Assembly: GCA_003249935.1 (NCBI GenBank)
Contig: QKHT01000105.1
Location: 1 to 38,291, forward strand
DNA length: 38,291 nucleotides
Source: Bacteroidota bacterium
Lineage (GTDB): Bacteria; Bacteroidota; Bacteroidia; Bacteroidales; UBA5342
Direction: 5' to 3'
The notes under the pieces were generated by a model, which made no database searches, had not been told where the DNA came from, and saw only the letters and a program-made list of their open reading frames with translations. This document shows, piece after piece, positions 11,811 through 18,632 of this stretch. The stretch's first letter is position 1. Each line of letters starts with the position of its first letter. The position numbers and the translations under genes were made by a program.

Positions 11811-11938
11811 TTAAAAATCTTAATTTATTGGCATCCAACAATAAAAAACAGTGGTGGTATGCCTGTATTGATAAAATTGTTCGGGGCACAAATTTACTAA
11901 CTTTTATTATCGGATGAGGAATGCCAATTGAAAAAATG

Positions 11939-11946
11939 TAATTTTG
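11939..11946 (+). promoter_or_regulatory. Possible -7 element for the HAD phosphatase gene
   Basis: TAATTTTG fits TAnnTTTG and lies 52 bp before the chosen ATG. No properly spaced TTG is visible upstream. Confidence 0.3.
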
Positions 11947-11998
11947 CCAAAATAAAACAGTGTTCCGCCAAAAATGCGGAAACTTTAAGAATAGCAGA

Positions 11999-12679
11999 AT
12001 GAATTTAAAAGGGTTAAAAGCCGTTTTTTTTGATATGGACGGCGTATTATTCGATTCGATGCCGGCACATGCCGATTGCTGGGTTCGGTCATTTAACATG
12101 TCGGGATTAAATTTTACGCACGAACAGGCCTATATGAACGAAGGCAGAACCGGCAGTGGCACCATAAACCTTGCATATAATGCACAATACGGCCGGAACG
12201 CAACCCAAGTGGAGATAGATACCATATACGGCAATAAAACCATTTTGATGGAACAGTGGCCGGATGGGGGCATCATACAAGGAATGCCGGAAGTAATCAG
12301 TTTTCTTCAGTCAAAGCATATTGAACTTTGGGTGGTTACGGGTTCGTCGCAAAAGATGTTGTTGGCAAAATTGAACACATCGTTTCCCGGCGTTTTTTCC
12401 GAAGATCGTATGGTTACAGGTTTCGACGTGATTCATGGAAAACCACACCCGGAACCATACCTGATGGCCCTGCACAAGTCGGGCTATAAACCCGAAGAAA
12501 CAGTAGTGATAGAAAATGCCCCATTAGGCATAGAATCGGCAAAGGCAGCCGGATTGAAATGCATGGCTATAAACACCGGTGTGTTGAGCGACAAAATACT
12601 GGCCGACGAAGGTGCTGATATTGTGGTAAAAACAGCGGCGCAACTGCTCACGATTTTCATCGACAGCTTAACAAACTGA
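11999..12679 (+). CDS. HAD-superfamily phosphatase, beta-phosphoglucomutase-like
   Basis: The chosen start, ATG at 11999, begins MNLKGLKAVFFDMDG. A longer frame from 11960 adds 13 residues with no family support. The 226-residue protein has the HAD motifs: DMDG with nucleophile D12 and acid D14, the VVTGS motif II around 113-117, K148 in GKPHPEPY, and IENAPLGIESAKAAG (172-186) in place of the usual EDS-type motif IV. The cap lies between motifs I and II, as in the phosphoglucomutase-like subfamily. It probably dephosphorylates or isomerises a sugar phosphate; substrate unknown. Its stop codon directly abuts the stop of the convergent rlhA-like gene, with no bases between them. Confidence 0.85.
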   Translation: MNLKGLKAVFFDMDGVLFDSMPAHADCWVRSFNMSGLNFTHEQAYMNEGRTGSGTINLAYNAQYGRNATQVEIDTIYGNKTILMEQWPDGGIIQGMPEVISFLQSKHIELWVVTGSSQKMLLAKLNTSFPGVFSEDRMVTGFDVIHGKPHPEPYLMALHKSGYKPEETVVIENAPLGIESAKAAGLKCMAINTGVLSDKILADEGADIVVKTAAQLLTIFIDSLTN

Positions 12680-14518
12680 TTATAGGCCTTTTAATCGGCC
12701 AACCACTTCCATTTCGCATTTTGCACAATTGAATACCAGACGCAACTTTTGGCCTTCGGGTGTAACCAGCCAATAGGGTTCGGCTTTGGCCTGCCCTTTT
12801 TGGTAACGCGGACAAATTTGCATTTCGTATTTTATACAATGTTTTGTAGTCATTAGCGGTACGTCTTCAATAACCTGTTCGGTTTCGTAGGCTTCTTTTT
12901 CTACAATGAACCCCGCCGTGGCCATTACAGCAGCAGCCTTGCTATTGAGTATATTTTCCTGAAAAGCCGGTTTATCGGACACATAAACCATTGGTTGATC
13001 AGCAATAACAGGTTTCGAACCTGTTTTGTAATTTATGAGCCGTGTGTGCAAATGCGCTTCGAGCAATTCGTTTTTCATTTCGCCAAGCACCGAAGCCGGA
13101 AGGAAAAGATTGGCCTCATTATCCAGAACAGCTTCGGCCACATACCAGATCGAATTACCCGCCTTACGAAGCGAATCGTGCAGTTTTTGGTTCACCCCAC
13201 CAGGGTTACCAGCCGGTTCAAGCGCGATATGCCTGTAAACAACAGAGTTCCGTTGATCTTCGTCAATTGCTTCTAAACGCACAACATTTTTGCTTATAAT
13301 GAGCTTTACGTTCAGCGATATTTTTCTTTCGGCACTGTTTTTTTGCATGATGTCCTCGAACCCTTTATCGAAATTTCGGTACAACATGGTGCCCGACTGG
13401 AGACCTTTGGGAAAATTGTTCCAGTAGATACGGTTTCCGTCTACTTTGTCGGCTTTAAAACCGACCAATTTACCGTTATTGTCGAGAAAACAGAATCCGT
13501 CGCCATTAACACTTTGGGCCGTACTCTGCACCTGAAGATAATTTTCGGCGACCTTTATGGTTCGACCAAAAACCTCGCCGGTAGATTTTGGTGTAGCCCG
13601 TTGAAGTACATTGGGCTGTCGGTCCTGAACAAAATAGGTAGTGAACCCGCGATTAAAGCTTTTGTTGGGGTTCGGTTCGAAAAAGTAGGTACATTTTCCC
13701 GATGATGATTTAACAAGACCGGGGGTTCCGGCCAAAATACCGTCTAAAGTCTGACGATAATGTGCCGTTATATTTTTAACGTAGCCTATATCTTTTAATC
13801 GCCCTTCGATTTTAAAAGAAGAGATGCCGGCATCGATAAGTGCCGATAGATTTTCGGTAAGATTGAGATCGCGAATAGAGAGCCAATGGGCACTTTCGGC
13901 AATCTGAATACCATTTTTATCTTCGAGCGTATAGGGCAAACGGCAAAATTGCGCACATTCGCCACGGTTAGCACTTCGTCCGGTAAAGGCCTGACTAATA
14001 TAACAGCGGCCGCTATATGCCACACAAAGTGCACCATGAATAAAAAATTCGAGTGCAGCGGTAGTCTGTTCTTTTATGGCTTTGATTTGCGTCATGGTTA
14101 GTTCGCGGGCCAACACAACTTGCGAAAAACCAAGACTTTCGAGAAACTGAACCTTTTGGGGCGTACGGTTATCGGTTTGTGTACTGGCATGAATCTCCAT
14201 GGGAGGGAGATTACACTTCACTAGACCCAAATCCTGTACAATGAGCGCATCGACTCCGGCACGATATAAATCCCAGGCTAATTTTTCGGCTTCAACAATT
14301 TCATCATCGTTGAATATGGTATTTAAGGTGGTAAAAATGCGCGCATTGTACCTGTGTGCATACTTTACCAATTTTTCAATATCCTGAACTGAATTTCCGG
14401 CCGCCGCACGGGCACCGAATTTGTCGGCACCAATATATACTGCATCGGCACCATGATTAATTGCTGCGAAGCCGATTTCCGCATTACGGGCCGGCGACAA
14501 CAGTTCTATTTTCTGCAT
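12680..14518 (-). CDS. rlhA: U32 family protein, RlhA-like 23S rRNA hydroxylation protein
   Basis: This 612-residue protein closely follows E. coli RlhA (YdcP) over its length: the N-terminal ELLSPARNAEIGFAAINHG, IEFFIHGALCVAYSG-type core, four clustered cysteines C165, C172, C188 and C192, and a C-terminal part with KHC, CP and CAKCEM cysteines. Known RlhA hydroxylates 23S rRNA C2501 and needs an iron-sulfur cluster; members were once annotated as collagenase-like peptidases. I infer the same rRNA-modification role here. The start is 3 bp from the stop of the Spy-like gene, so it appears to be the fourth gene of the ECF sigma-factor operon, an unusual setting for an rRNA-modifying protein. 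Confidence 0.88.
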   Translation of the reverse strand: MQKIELLSPARNAEIGFAAINHGADAVYIGADKFGARAAAGNSVQDIEKLVKYAHRYNARIFTTLNTIFNDDEIVEAEKLAWDLYRAGVDALIVQDLGLVKCNLPPMEIHASTQTDNRTPQKVQFLESLGFSQVVLARELTMTQIKAIKEQTTAALEFFIHGALCVAYSGRCYISQAFTGRSANRGECAQFCRLPYTLEDKNGIQIAESAHWLSIRDLNLTENLSALIDAGISSFKIEGRLKDIGYVKNITAHYRQTLDGILAGTPGLVKSSSGKCTYFFEPNPNKSFNRGFTTYFVQDRQPNVLQRATPKSTGEVFGRTIKVAENYLQVQSTAQSVNGDGFCFLDNNGKLVGFKADKVDGNRIYWNNFPKGLQSGTMLYRNFDKGFEDIMQKNSAERKISLNVKLIISKNVVRLEAIDEDQRNSVVYRHIALEPAGNPGGVNQKLHDSLRKAGNSIWYVAEAVLDNEANLFLPASVLGEMKNELLEAHLHTRLINYKTGSKPVIADQPMVYVSDKPAFQENILNSKAAAVMATAGFIVEKEAYETEQVIEDVPLMTTKHCIKYEMQICPRYQKGQAKAEPYWLVTPEGQKLRLVFNCAKCEMEVVGRLKGL

Positions 14519-14521
14519 TCG

Positions 14522-15004
14522 TTACTTTAATTTTAATGAATCGGGCCGTAGGCCTCTTTTAGCACCATCACCATTGGGTAACGGCCCGGGCCTCTCTTCG
14601 TCGCGATGTCCTCTTGATCGATCCTTCAACTTTTTCATTCGTTCGTCGCGCAAGGTCTGAAACATTGCCCATTGTTCTTTGTTCAATAGAGGCTTAATAT
14701 TATTGTACATTTCGTTCCAAAGTGGTTCCATTTGAGCCATTGAGTTCCGCATAATCTGGTGACCTTTATCGCCATATTTCTTTACAATGGGCAAAATCTT
14801 TTCCTTTTGCGCATCGGTGGCATTTACTTTATTAAGTGCTTCGGTCCAAAAGCGTTGCTCATAATCGTTCCAACGATAATTTCGCAAACGATTGGCAGTA
14901 AGTGTACTTTGCGTAAAGAACCCAATAAAAAAACCCACGACCAAAACAGCAGAAAACTGTAAAAATGGCTTCCAATTAATCTGTTTAATTTTATTTGTCC
15001 ACAT
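14522..15004 (-). CDS. Membrane-anchored Spy/CpxP-like periplasmic protein
   Basis: This 160-residue protein has one N-terminal membrane helix (about 15-32), then a charged helical region with repeated patterns such as TDAQKEKILPIVKKYG and LLNKEQWAMFQTLRDERMKK, typical of the Spy/CpxP/CnrX group. The tail is rich in Arg, Gly and Pro. Such proteins act as periplasmic chaperones or, as in CnrX, as metal sensors that control an anti-sigma factor. No obvious His/Met metal cluster is visible, so metal sensing is not supported directly. It follows the putative anti-sigma gene by 15 bp and precedes rlhA by 3 bp. Confidence 0.72.
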   Translation of the reverse strand: MWTNKIKQINWKPFLQFSAVLVVGFFIGFFTQSTLTANRLRNYRWNDYEQRFWTEALNKVNATDAQKEKILPIVKKYGDKGHQIMRNSMAQMEPLWNEMYNNIKPLLNKEQWAMFQTLRDERMKKLKDRSRGHRDEERPGPLPNGDGAKRGLRPDSLKLK

Positions 15005-15019
15005 AATGTATTTTTTACA

Positions 15020-15316
15020 TTAATATCCCATCGAACTGGCAATTGCACTTTCCATATCGATATTGGTCCAGCCCATTAAGGATTGAACCGAAATACCCTG
15101 CCCCATAATGACTGCCAGAACAAACACCACAACCAGCGTAGCAAGAGCAGGCATAAAAATTTTCCGAAACGCAAAATCGCGGTTCATTTGATAGGACATC
15201 ACCATGTTTTCGATACGAGCCATTACACGTGTTTCGAAAAACGGCTTAAAGTCGGCATCGTAGTTTTCGAAAAAATTGCCAATGTTTTTTTCGGGATTGA
15301 ATGTTTTACTTTTCAT
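15020..15316 (-). CDS. Short single-pass membrane protein, probable anti-sigma factor
   Basis: This 98-residue protein has a charged N-terminal part (1-50, cytoplasmic if oriented like an anti-sigma factor), a membrane helix at about 54-74 (ALATLVVVFVLAVIMG) and a short outer tail. I do not recognise a named domain. Its start overlaps the sigma-factor stop by 4 bp (ATGA), so the two are translationally coupled. Position and topology resemble the small anti-sigma proteins in CnrYXH-type modules, and on that basis I infer it holds the sigma factor at the membrane. It has no zinc-binding anti-sigma motif (HxxxCxxC). Confidence 0.6.
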   Translation of the reverse strand: MKSKTFNPEKNIGNFFENYDADFKPFFETRVMARIENMVMSYQMNRDFAFRKIFMPALATLVVVFVLAVIMGQGISVQSLMGWTNIDMESAIASSMGY

Positions 15317-15927
15317 TTCAATTCTGTTTTAACTTTCACTTTCGCGGTTGTGTCGGCGGTATTTATAACCATTTCGCGAGACAACTTCGAAACAATTTCT
15401 TTTAGTCGGTCCTGAGCCCGTGTAAGCCTGCTAAGTACGGTACCCAACGGCACCCCAAGCATTTCGGCCGTTTCCTTTGTAGAGTAGCCCTCTATTAGCC
15501 TCAACAAGATAACCGATCTGAATTTCGGGTCGAGATGAGCGAGTGCTTTTTCGATCAGTTCATTCCGGCTCAACGATTCGTCGACATTGGCTTCATCGGC
15601 CAAATCGGGCAACGGCTGTTCGTCGTCTTTTACGCTAAAGAACAGAAACCTTCTTTTCCGCGAATTTAATTCGTTGAGCGAAAGATTGATAGCAATGCGC
15701 GTTAAATAAGTTCCTAATGCCGAATCGCCCCTGAAACTTGAAATAGATTGGTAAAACCTAACAAAAACCTCCTGACCTACATCATCGGCTTCGGGTGTAT
15801 CGCCCAGCATTCCAATAACCACGCGTGCTACCATTTTACGATAACGCTTCATCAACTCGCTAAAAGCTTGTTGATTGCCCCCATTTACCATGGCGATTAA
15901 TTCGCTATCTGTAAGCTTTTCTTTCAA
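15313..15927 (-). CDS. ECF sigma factor (sigma-70 family, group 4)
   Basis: This 204-residue protein contains region 2 (about 21-95, with DTPEADDVGQEVFVRFYQ and the DNA-melting stretch SALGTYLTRIAINLSLNEL) and region 4 (about 128-188, with helix-turn-helix STKETAEMLGVPLGTVLSRL). Regions 1 and 3 are absent, as in ECF sigma factors. It directs RNA polymerase to a specific promoter set, usually in response to envelope stress. It heads a tight run with a membrane protein, a Spy-like protein and an RlhA-like protein, suggesting that release of the sigma factor is controlled by a periplasmic signal. A leftward TATCTTTG at 16000-16007 lies 73 bp upstream but lacks a well-spaced -33 box. Confidence 0.93.
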   Translation of the reverse strand: MKEKLTDSELIAMVNGGNQQAFSELMKRYRKMVARVVIGMLGDTPEADDVGQEVFVRFYQSISSFRGDSALGTYLTRIAINLSLNELNSRKRRFLFFSVKDDEQPLPDLADEANVDESLSRNELIEKALAHLDPKFRSVILLRLIEGYSTKETAEMLGVPLGTVLSRLTRAQDRLKEIVSKLSREMVINTADTTAKVKVKTELK

Positions 15928-16172
15928 AACAATTTTACTGTTTTCGATTGTTTGACAATAGAAATGAATTTTTTATTCCCATACCCTTTAAAAGCGTTAC
16001 AAAGATACACAGATAGATACAATATAGGCCATTGAACCCAAATTTCACATGAATTAATATTAAAACGATGCAACCATTTTTCGGCAAAACGACACTTTGT
16101 TTTTGTTACAACAGGTGATTAAAAGGTTCGAACCAAAATAATGTTTTAACTGTGAAACTCATTAAAATTGTG
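15928..16172. other. Intergenic region upstream of the ECF sigma gene
   Basis: This divergent, AT-rich region holds the promoters of the sigma operon (leftward) and the VIT-domain gene (rightward). The only element I can name is CAAAGATA at 16000-16007, a -7-like box on the minus strand. No small gene or hairpin is apparent. An autoregulated ECF promoter could lie here but its consensus is unknown. Confidence 0.4.
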
Positions 16173-16180: not shown

Positions 16181-16220
16181 AATTATCAAACAATTGATTA
16201 ACAATACAATCGATAATAAT

Positions 16221-18632
16221 ATGAAACGTATTTTACTTACTTTTTCGGTCATATTGGCCATGGCCATTCAGGCTAAGGCTTATAGTTGGATTCGTATCGG
16301 TGACCCAAGAGGCGACTGGAGCACCTGGTCGAACGGCACTATTGACAAAATTGACTACAAATTAGTGTCGCAAGGCATGTATTTCGATGTAACGATGGAA
16401 GTCACCTTTTCGGCGGCCAATTACAAACCAACGATCAAATCGGACTCACTCGAAGTTCAGTTCGGGTTCAATTTACCGACCGGTTCAACCATGTACGATG
16501 CCTGGCTTAAGGTGGGCGAACAATGGCAGCAAGCCTACATTATGGACCGCAGGGAAGCAACTGAAATTTACGAGGGTATTGTAAAAAGACGACAAGACCC
16601 CATGATTATTTACAAATATTATGGTGATTATTACTACCTTCAGATTTTTCCGCTCAATGTAAAATCGAATCGTACAGCCCGAATCAGCTTTTTAACACCG
16701 GCCACACCCGAGGCCAAAAACCTGATTCTGAAACTACCTGCGCTCGAATCGTACAACTATTTTAATGCCATGGATGTGGTTAAGGGCATAAGCGTGCTTA
16801 ATATCAATGTATCGTCGGATAGTAAGCCAACAATAGCCGAAATTCCTGAAATATCGCCGCAACAAGGTTCAGACAAAACATGGAATTTTAAAATATCACG
16901 TTCACTTAATAACGGTACACTTACCCTTGCTATACCAAATCCGAATTTTGGCAAACCATATTTTTCGGTTTGTGGCACAGGCGATTCGGTATTTTATCAA
17001 CTGGCTTATAAACCTTCGGATTTTATTCCAGCAGAAAAAACGGGTCGAAAATTTGTATTTGTCATTGCCCACGATACCACCCGACAAAACTACTATTACT
17101 ACGACTACTACTATCAGCAACCGGCCGAAGTATCGTTTAGTGGTTCCATTAAAGGCGTAAAAACGTTTATCGAAAAGAACCTGACCACATCAGATTCGTT
17201 CAATATTGTGGTATCGGGAATAACCGGCGATTTGGTATCGAACACGTGGATTGCAGCTAAACCGTCGGCAATTAACGAAACATTTGCCTCGCTCACTTCA
17301 GAAAAATACAAGCGGTACAAATTATCTTCTTTGCTGAACCCCGCTGCGGCATTTGTTAAAAAGACTAAGGATGGCGAAATAATTTTGGTAAGTAACACAC
17401 GAGAAGGGATTTATGCCGACAGTGTGGCTCGCGAAACAATCAGGTTTATAAAAGAGGCCAACGGAATGGTGCCAACCATACACGTAGCCGATTATTTGTA
17501 CGCTTATGCGGACGCAGGATATGCTTGGGAACAAATTTCGTTCTATGCATCGAACCAAACGCTGGGCGAAATTGCCAGACTTTCGAAAGGATTATTCGTA
17601 AAAGTAAACAGTCAAACAGCATTTAACGAAGGGTTGCAATGGATGAATCAGAAACTCGATGGCGAAATTGACTTTTTCGAAGCCACGCCACAGTTCGAAA
17701 ATGGCATCGCTTATGCGAACTTCGATATCAATCCCAAACAGGAAAACAGCTACTACTGGTTCGGTTCAGCCGAAAAACAACAAGCCAGCATTGGAATAAA
17801 CGACTACAAAATGAGCGTTGGACGACTGTCGACCGTAAGTCCCGCAAGCCTGAATGTGAAAGGCTTACGTGCAGGAAAACTGTTTTCGATGAATGTTCCG
17901 CTAAATGCGGTTGCCAATGGCGTGGATTGCGATTTACAACGCAAAATATGGGTTTCGTCGTATATTGCATCGATGGAAAGTGGCTGGATGGATGTGAATG
18001 CACAAAACAAAGTGGTTGAAACTTCGGTCAAAAATCGTGTTCTGTCTTCGTACACCTCATTTTTGGCATTGGAACCGGGTGCCGATTCGTTACTTAAAAA
18101 TTGTACGAGTTGCGGCGAAATCAGTCAAAATACAAATTCCGGTAGTACAGGTTCAAGAGAAAGTAACGGCATTGTTTCGGATGCCATATCGGTAGATAAA
18201 GGCGGTGCATACAATACCGGTTCGGGAAATTTTGTCGACGGATTTCAGAAAGGCATTCAAACGGCCTGCGATACAATATTCACAATTGCCTATAGTAAAG
18301 GTTACAACGAAGGTATAAAAGATGCTACGGGTGCAATTGACGGCGTGCCGACTTCCGAAATCCTAACCGCTGCGCCAAATCCTTTCAGCACCTATATTTC
18401 ATTGAATATTGACTTGTCCAACGCCGAATCGGGCAACATAAAACTCGTTGAAATTGTGGATATTATGGGAAAAACCATCAAAACGTACACCGAAAGCAAC
18501 AGCACCCCGCGCAAAACAATTACATGGCTTGGCAATACACAAAACGGCTCATCGGTTTCGTCGGGCAACTACTTTGTTGTCGTAACCTCATCGACAAAGA
18601 AATACACGTACAGAATTACAAAACTCGACTAA
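16221..18632 (+). CDS. Secreted VIT-domain protein with T9SS type A sorting domain
   Basis: Start chosen at ATG 16221 because it opens directly with a signal peptide (MKRILLTFSVILAMAIQAKA); an upstream ATG at 16194 adds nine non-signal residues. The 803-residue protein has a VIT domain at about 45-165 (marked by DAWLKVGEQWQQAYIMDRREA), as found before VWA domains in inter-alpha-trypsin inhibitor-like proteins. The following region (about 280-460) resembles a VWA fold, but the metal-binding DxSxS is replaced by HDTT, so it is probably degenerate. A Tyr-rich stretch lies near 290-302. Residues about 713-803 (AAPNPFSTYISLNIDL to the end) form a T9SS type A C-terminal sorting domain. I infer a surface-attached adhesion or matrix protein; function unknown. 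Confidence 0.85.
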   Translation: MKRILLTFSVILAMAIQAKAYSWIRIGDPRGDWSTWSNGTIDKIDYKLVSQGMYFDVTMEVTFSAANYKPTIKSDSLEVQFGFNLPTGSTMYDAWLKVGEQWQQAYIMDRREATEIYEGIVKRRQDPMIIYKYYGDYYYLQIFPLNVKSNRTARISFLTPATPEAKNLILKLPALESYNYFNAMDVVKGISVLNINVSSDSKPTIAEIPEISPQQGSDKTWNFKISRSLNNGTLTLAIPNPNFGKPYFSVCGTGDSVFYQLAYKPSDFIPAEKTGRKFVFVIAHDTTRQNYYYYDYYYQQPAEVSFSGSIKGVKTFIEKNLTTSDSFNIVVSGITGDLVSNTWIAAKPSAINETFASLTSEKYKRYKLSSLLNPAAAFVKKTKDGEIILVSNTREGIYADSVARETIRFIKEANGMVPTIHVADYLYAYADAGYAWEQISFYASNQTLGEIARLSKGLFVKVNSQTAFNEGLQWMNQKLDGEIDFFEATPQFENGIAYANFDINPKQENSYYWFGSAEKQQASIGINDYKMSVGRLSTVSPASLNVKGLRAGKLFSMNVPLNAVANGVDCDLQRKIWVSSYIASMESGWMDVNAQNKVVETSVKNRVLSSYTSFLALEPGADSLLKNCTSCGEISQNTNSGSTGSRESNGIVSDAISVDKGGAYNTGSGNFVDGFQKGIQTACDTIFTIAYSKGYNEGIKDATGAIDGVPTSEILTAAPNPFSTYISLNIDLSNAESGNIKLVEIVDIMGKTIKTYTESNSTPRKTITWLGNTQNGSSVSSGNYFVVVTSSTKKYTYRITKLD

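Follow-up and report, generated by a model that had tools for sequence, protein, structure and literature searches.

An rlhA orthologue behind a predicted envelope-stress sigma factor module in a Bacteroidales genome

Can a sigma factor that answers damage at the cell surface come to govern the chemistry of the ribosome? The question is raised by contig QKHT01000105.1 of a Bacteroidota bacterium (Bacteroidales; UBA5342; assembly GCA_003249935.1), analysed here as a window of 38,291 nucleotides that is one entire contig (C120) of a 4.27-Mb draft genome of 326 contigs (G000). Four genes run leftward on its minus strand: an extracytoplasmic function (ECF) sigma factor gene, genes for a 98-aa membrane protein and a 160-aa membrane-anchored helical protein, and a gene for a 612-aa U32/DUF3656 protein. 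The last appears to be an orthologue of RlhA, which serves the hydroxylation of C2501 in 23S rRNA, a nucleotide adjoining the peptidyl transferase centre. A first-pass annotation had likened the first three products to CnrYXH-type modules and proposed that the arrangement ties envelope or metal stress to ribosome modification. We find it somewhat more probable than its opposite that the locus is an autoregulated envelope-stress operon of ECF sigma factor, membrane anti-sigma factor and Spy-like protein, which rlhA joined last; the likeliest course is that rlhA was added in this lineage and shares the transcript of the stress promoter. It is doubtful, on the other hand, that the sigma factor now controls C2501 hydroxylation in the sense of a dedicated operon carrying surface damage to ribosome chemistry.

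The fourth gene and its RlhA-type product

The U32 protein, encoded at positions 12680-14518 (minus strand), matches the Pfam families Peptidase_U32 (E 5.6e-75) and DUF3656 (E 4.8e-13), both above the curated cut-off. Escherichia coli RlhA (YdcP), which acts on C2501, has the same two domains and is 43.7% identical to it over 622 columns, compared with 27.5% for TrhP and 31% for UbiU. Formation of 5-hydroxycytidine at this position (ho5C2501) requires residues E161, C169 and C176 of RlhA (PMC6599085; articles are cited here by accession, and each statement taken from them refers to an excerpt of the article), and these correspond to E157, C165 and C172 of the window protein. Altogether, nine of ten checked glutamate and cysteine positions are kept, including C188 and C192 (E. 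coli C192 and C196) and the C-terminal C561, C569, C598 and C601 (C572, C580, C611 and C614); the tenth, E. coli C119, is T115 here, and threonine occupies that position in 22 of the 44 compared sequences. In a tree of 46 of 49 U32 sequences (the partial L051, L078 and L080 were set aside), the protein grouped with E. coli RlhA and apart from TrhP and UbiU, on a branch whose local values of 80/96 do not make it firm; its named relatives are Bacteroidales, Paludibacter and Porphyromonas records. On identity values, residues and tree, an identity as TrhP, UbiU or UbiV was rejected. Judged from its sequence, the protein is of the RlhA type, as the first-pass label had it, and C2501 hydroxylation is its presumed function.

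The cluster with this genuine rlhA is compact, and its geometry was confirmed from the coordinates as first described. The sigma gene overlaps the gene for the 98-aa protein by 4 bp (ATGA), 15 bp separate the latter from the Spy-like gene, and a gap of 3 bp (14519-14521) lies between the Spy-like gene and rlhA. With so short a gap, read-through is the simplest expectation, and co-transcription of rlhA with the module is probable. None of the minus-strand terminator-like sites listed falls in 14523-15927, all four lying within rlhA or past it, and no minus-strand TAnnTTTG box was listed in 11897-15999. The claim that rlhA follows as fourth gene after 3 bp held, and the sequence scans listed no separate promoter-like site for it. 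E. coli rlhA differs in its setting, being located downstream of sutR with no adjoining sigma gene. Could the contig have joined unrelated pieces at the border between spy and rlhA? The draft state of the genome, with its 326 contigs, and the uniqueness of the gene order would allow such an artefact, but the genes on both sides of the 3-bp gap are intact and all four are alike in composition (G+C 40-45%, G+C at third codon positions 41-47%), and we consider it very improbable.

At the far end of the cluster, the stop codon of a convergent HAD gene (11960-12679, plus strand) abuts that of rlhA with zero spacer; its product matches the NCBIfam model InDiPhoBT2121 (inorganic diphosphatase) above cut-off.

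The sigma factor trio and its promoter

The sigma factor gene (15313-15927, minus strand) begins with TTG and encodes 204 aa with Pfam matches to Sigma70_r2 (E 1.8e-15) and r4_2 (E 2e-13), as well as a TIGR02937 (sigma70-ECF) match above cut-off. At E<=1e-42, it was found in 18 of the 393 genomes of the order, the own genome included, with 47-62% identity in the 17 others. The genome scans for sigma and rlhA scored the best eight or three first-look candidates per genome, and scoring all candidates in 60 genomes returned the same four besides the own genome. The next two genes after sigma are homologues of the membrane protein (15020-15316, minus strand) and of the Spy-like protein (14522-15004, minus strand) in 17 of 17 other loci, and profiles, built mostly from these same sequences, also recovered each of the two in all 17. 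The trio is a recurring module of known kind in related bacteria, to which rlhA is an addition seen once. The gene after Spy, identified in all but five of the 17 loci, varies: it encodes a DUF4293 protein, a solute-binding protein, a TonB plug, a secreted LTXXQ/Metal_resist protein or a protein bearing a type IX secretion tail, or else lies on the opposite strand. BLAST searches with the U32 proteins of the window and of E. coli found no U32 gene in any of the 17 stretches; in one of them (L119) the contig stops at Spy, and the genome concerned (G384) did not score as positive for rlhA.

Neither middle protein has a Pfam match at E<=0.01 in its window form. The 98-aa protein, presumed to be the anti-sigma factor, shows one apparent transmembrane helix, judged by eye, and one of 16 members of its family gives a weak RseA_N match. 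For the 160-aa protein, presumably a sensor or chaperone, helices are predicted at residues 12-59, 64-106 and 109-130 (model mean pLDDT 78.8, pTM 0.47). The LTXXQ profile gave weak matches, at best E 3e-4, to 7 of 15 members of the family but none to the window protein itself; a profile search of PDB placed Spy at E 0.024, behind apolipoprotein A-I. Foldseek gave no match to the model at E<=0.001 and three at E<=10, and a second fold search ranked CpxP eleventh (Z 3.6) amid unrelated helical chains. CnrX was not among the matches of the two fold searches, which does not exclude a CnrX-type fold. With no clear match to either protein, confirmation of a Spy or CnrX fold was dropped; the original Spy-like label is weakly supported.

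The presumed roles of anti-sigma factor and sensor are drawn by analogy with CirYZ-Spy and CnrYXH. In Cupriavidus metallidurans, CnrH, CnrY and CnrX are an ECF sigma factor, a short one-helix anti-sigma factor and a membrane-anchored helical periplasmic sensor, and the cnr gene order differs from that of the window trio. The part types are similar, the likeness of the presumed anti-sigma factor of the window lying in its length and by-eye helix; a match to CnrX in sequence or fold was not found, nor was a metal-efflux operon among the neighbouring window genes scanned with Pfam. Of the CnrYXH-type comparison made at first, the look of an envelope-sensing ECF module survives, carried by the trio in 17 of 17 other loci and the promoter footprint described below; membership in Cnr proper was not established, and a metal signal found no direct support.

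A closer counterpart, in the Bacteroidales themselves, is the CirY/CirZ-Spy system of Phocaeicola vulgatus, in which sigma factor, anti-sigma factor and spy are co-transcribed and self-activating, and deletion of the anti-sigma gene raises sigma, spy and two downstream genes (PMC13114119, 2026). The likeness is one of gene content (ECF sigma, anti-sigma and spy-type gene) and does not imply orthology of CirY and the window sigma factor. The trio, which resembles this operon, looks like an autoregulated envelope-stress module. CnrY is a class II anti-sigma factor, and a class I anti-sigma factor lies near only 6% of Bacteroidetes ECF genes, for which other anti-sigma classes have been suggested (PMC7406223); this scarcity fits an unrecognised small anti-sigma factor here. 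Another Bacteroidales ECF system, the EcfO/Reo pair of Bacteroides and Phocaeicola, is thought to answer envelope stress as well (PMC9308784); Reo is large and extends to the outer membrane, and the excerpt does not name a spy gene as part of the pair.

Autoregulation is suggested by a single element that the 270-bp stretches ahead of the 18 sigma genes have in common, GGAATA-N16-TGTC, often in the form GGGAATAAA...TTGTCAAA, which resembles a sigma-E class promoter. It is exact at the sigma start in 16 of the 18 loci, the window included; L114 has GGTC in place of TGTC and L120 lacks the motif. Under a simple composition model, chance alone would produce such a match at a rate of about 3e-4 per region. 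Of the 17 motif-bearing loci, 16 have the motif starting 17-61 bp upstream of the predicted sigma start; in L108 it starts 13 bp inside a predicted start that is over-long. The window copy, at 15954-15979 (minus strand), ends 26 bp ahead of the start codon of sigma and is the predicted autoregulatory promoter; no match occurs between spy and rlhA. Around the 97 other rlhA genes described below, three matches fell in 37 wider loci and two in 60 upstream stretches, none of them directly before rlhA; the closest one on the strand of rlhA, in L046, stands some 0.9 kb before the gene, within a frame of the other strand.

Other promoter types were set aside. The housekeeping form in Bacteroidota is TTTG-N17-23-TAnnTTTG, with two matches in the window against 3.2 expected and zero at this operon; a single TAnnTTTG box, at 16000-16007, does not exceed chance, the window having 54 such boxes where 45.6 are expected, and a TGTAAC-type -35 element is not common to the sigma loci. 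Beyond the promoter, a divergent gene (16194-18632), which has its intergenic region in common with the sigma operon, encodes a VIT-domain protein that carries a type IX secretion tail.

Genes behind the promoter motif

Across the 18 sigma-bearing genomes, GGAATAA-N15-TGTC occurs 110 times, compared with 41 for the reversed pattern, and the sigma promoters themselves account for 14 of the 110. As a spacing control, a pattern one base longer gave three matches in the 18 genomes, against four for its own control. In the own genome, a shorter form of the motif gave 11 matches versus 6 reversed. Many single matches must be due to chance, and at least four in the own genome stand over opposite-strand genes. 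Plausible start regions there precede a second ECF operon (C61), an outer membrane protein/TonB barrel (C129), an ABC transporter pair (C76) and, on C39, a 160-aa protein that looks secreted and matches Metal_resist below threshold. Two frames, of 118 and 152 aa, come after the second ECF sigma gene (L132:2406-3985), and the presence of the same motif upstream of that sigma gene suggests a sigma cascade.

Twenty of 103 motif sites in relatives were examined, picked for likeness to the fuller consensus and not randomly: 13 have a same-strand frame start within 400 bp, six lie inside another frame, and one has neither. Among the genes behind them, which were scanned with Pfam except for the one in L174, are those for secreted Metal_resist/LTXXQ proteins, an HtrA-type protease (at a distance of 257 bp) and OEP and HlyD efflux components, together with genes lacking a clear envelope role (a methyltransferase, a sortilin/BNR protein and a DUF5916 protein). 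A second copy of the motif stands ahead of the gene after Spy in five of 17 trio loci. Taken together, the motif and the genes behind it suggest an envelope-stress regulon in this bacterial group.

Linkage of rlhA to the module

Whether the fourth gene belongs to the module by more than position can be judged from its distribution. At E<=1e-100, an RlhA-type protein is present in 173 of the 393 genomes, the own genome included, and in neither of the two available genomes of the window's own family, one of which is 86% complete; since both lack rlhA, conservation of the order was judged across the order rather than within the genus. The surroundings of 97 other rlhA genes were covered, about 90 further rlhA-bearing genomes being left out: 22 relatives (with flanks of at most 4.5 kb), 15 named loci and, from the head of the rlhA list, 60 upstream stretches, three of them under 1,900 bases. 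L078 and L080, two of the named loci, begin inside rlhA so that the upstream side is not visible, and named and unnamed loci may overlap in species. The gene metA (homoserine O-succinyltransferase) occurs in the fetched stretch of 52 of the 97 loci (L036-L057, L066-L080, L193-L252), with the HTS domain confirmed for two of these genes; it is next upstream of rlhA in 12 of the 37 wider loci, within 60 bp in ten of them. A tie between methionine synthesis and rlhA expression is possible. The window genome has its own metA on contig C160.

Several results weigh against the reading of an envelope-stress operon that rlhA has joined, or against extending it to ribosome control. Profiles of the Spy-like and the small membrane protein each found no match in the 97 other rlhA loci (0/97), a sigma-like frame appeared in two (L071, L223), and the four-gene order was seen in no genome but this one. 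Joint occurrence of sigma and rlhA falls below expectation: 1 of 17 other sigma-bearing genomes has rlhA, against 171 of 375 and an expectation of 44% from the overall rate (Fisher p 0.0008, uncorrected for kinship), a rarity that may reflect kinship only. In the single case, G091, the two genes are on separate contigs (C48 and C51). The anti-sigma and Spy roles are read from position and shape, the Spy-like label weakly so. Some sigma-bearing genomes have no excess of the motif (G331 with four matches against five reversed, G178 with two against three). Finally, the two genes after spy in P. vulgatus belong to the regulon yet are described as transcriptionally unlinked (PMC13114119), so that a gene in this place need not be read through.

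On these observations a conserved four-gene operon was rejected, the trio being absent from the 97 other rlhA loci and the U32 gene from the 17 sigma loci. The first-pass annotation had named the same order in relatives beforehand as the test of its proposal, and neither that order nor a sigma-rlhA linkage in other genomes was borne out. A title search of the literature found no paper joining rlhA with a sigma factor operon, which is not proof of absence from print.

How, then, is the fourth gene to be understood? One explanation, to which we give about an even chance, is that a rearrangement put rlhA behind the module as a passenger, transcribed by read-through or from a weak internal promoter, with no adaptive tie between envelope and ribosome. 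Linkage known from one genome, the diverse neighbours of rlhA elsewhere (often metA, which here sits on another contig) and the variable gene after Spy all favour a passenger, but rlhA is intact with its key residues kept, it follows after only 3 bp, and no promoter box inside spy was listed. The other explanation is that the lineage gains from more ho5C2501 during envelope stress, translation being slowed and the load on the envelope eased. In E. coli, oxidative stress is reported to raise ho5C2501, which impairs protein synthesis and protects the cell (earlier work cited in PMC12862378). RlhA is also called important under oxidative stress (PMC11194073), and among the predicted targets of the module several belong to envelope-protective families; the four-gene order is not conserved, however, and rlhA is missing from most sigma-bearing genomes. 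An adapted envelope-to-ribosome response of this kind is possible, gains no support from conservation, and seems to us unlikely.

For the reading we favour, an envelope-stress operon with rlhA joined last, the following course may be proposed. Without stress, the sigma factor would be kept bound by the small membrane protein. The anchored Spy-like protein would serve to sense damage to the envelope and so bring about release, and the freed sigma factor would transcribe its own operon from GGAATA-N16-TGTC. Read-through across the 3-bp gap would then raise RlhA along with the module, and ho5C2501 could rise during envelope stress.

Independently of the rlhA question, the promoter footprint and its downstream genes give this bacterial group a testable envelope-stress regulon. 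If rlhA is indeed induced with the module, the locus would link the envelope directly, at the level of transcription, with a modification in the catalytic centre of the ribosome, and would offer a natural setting in which to ask what purpose ho5C2501 serves.

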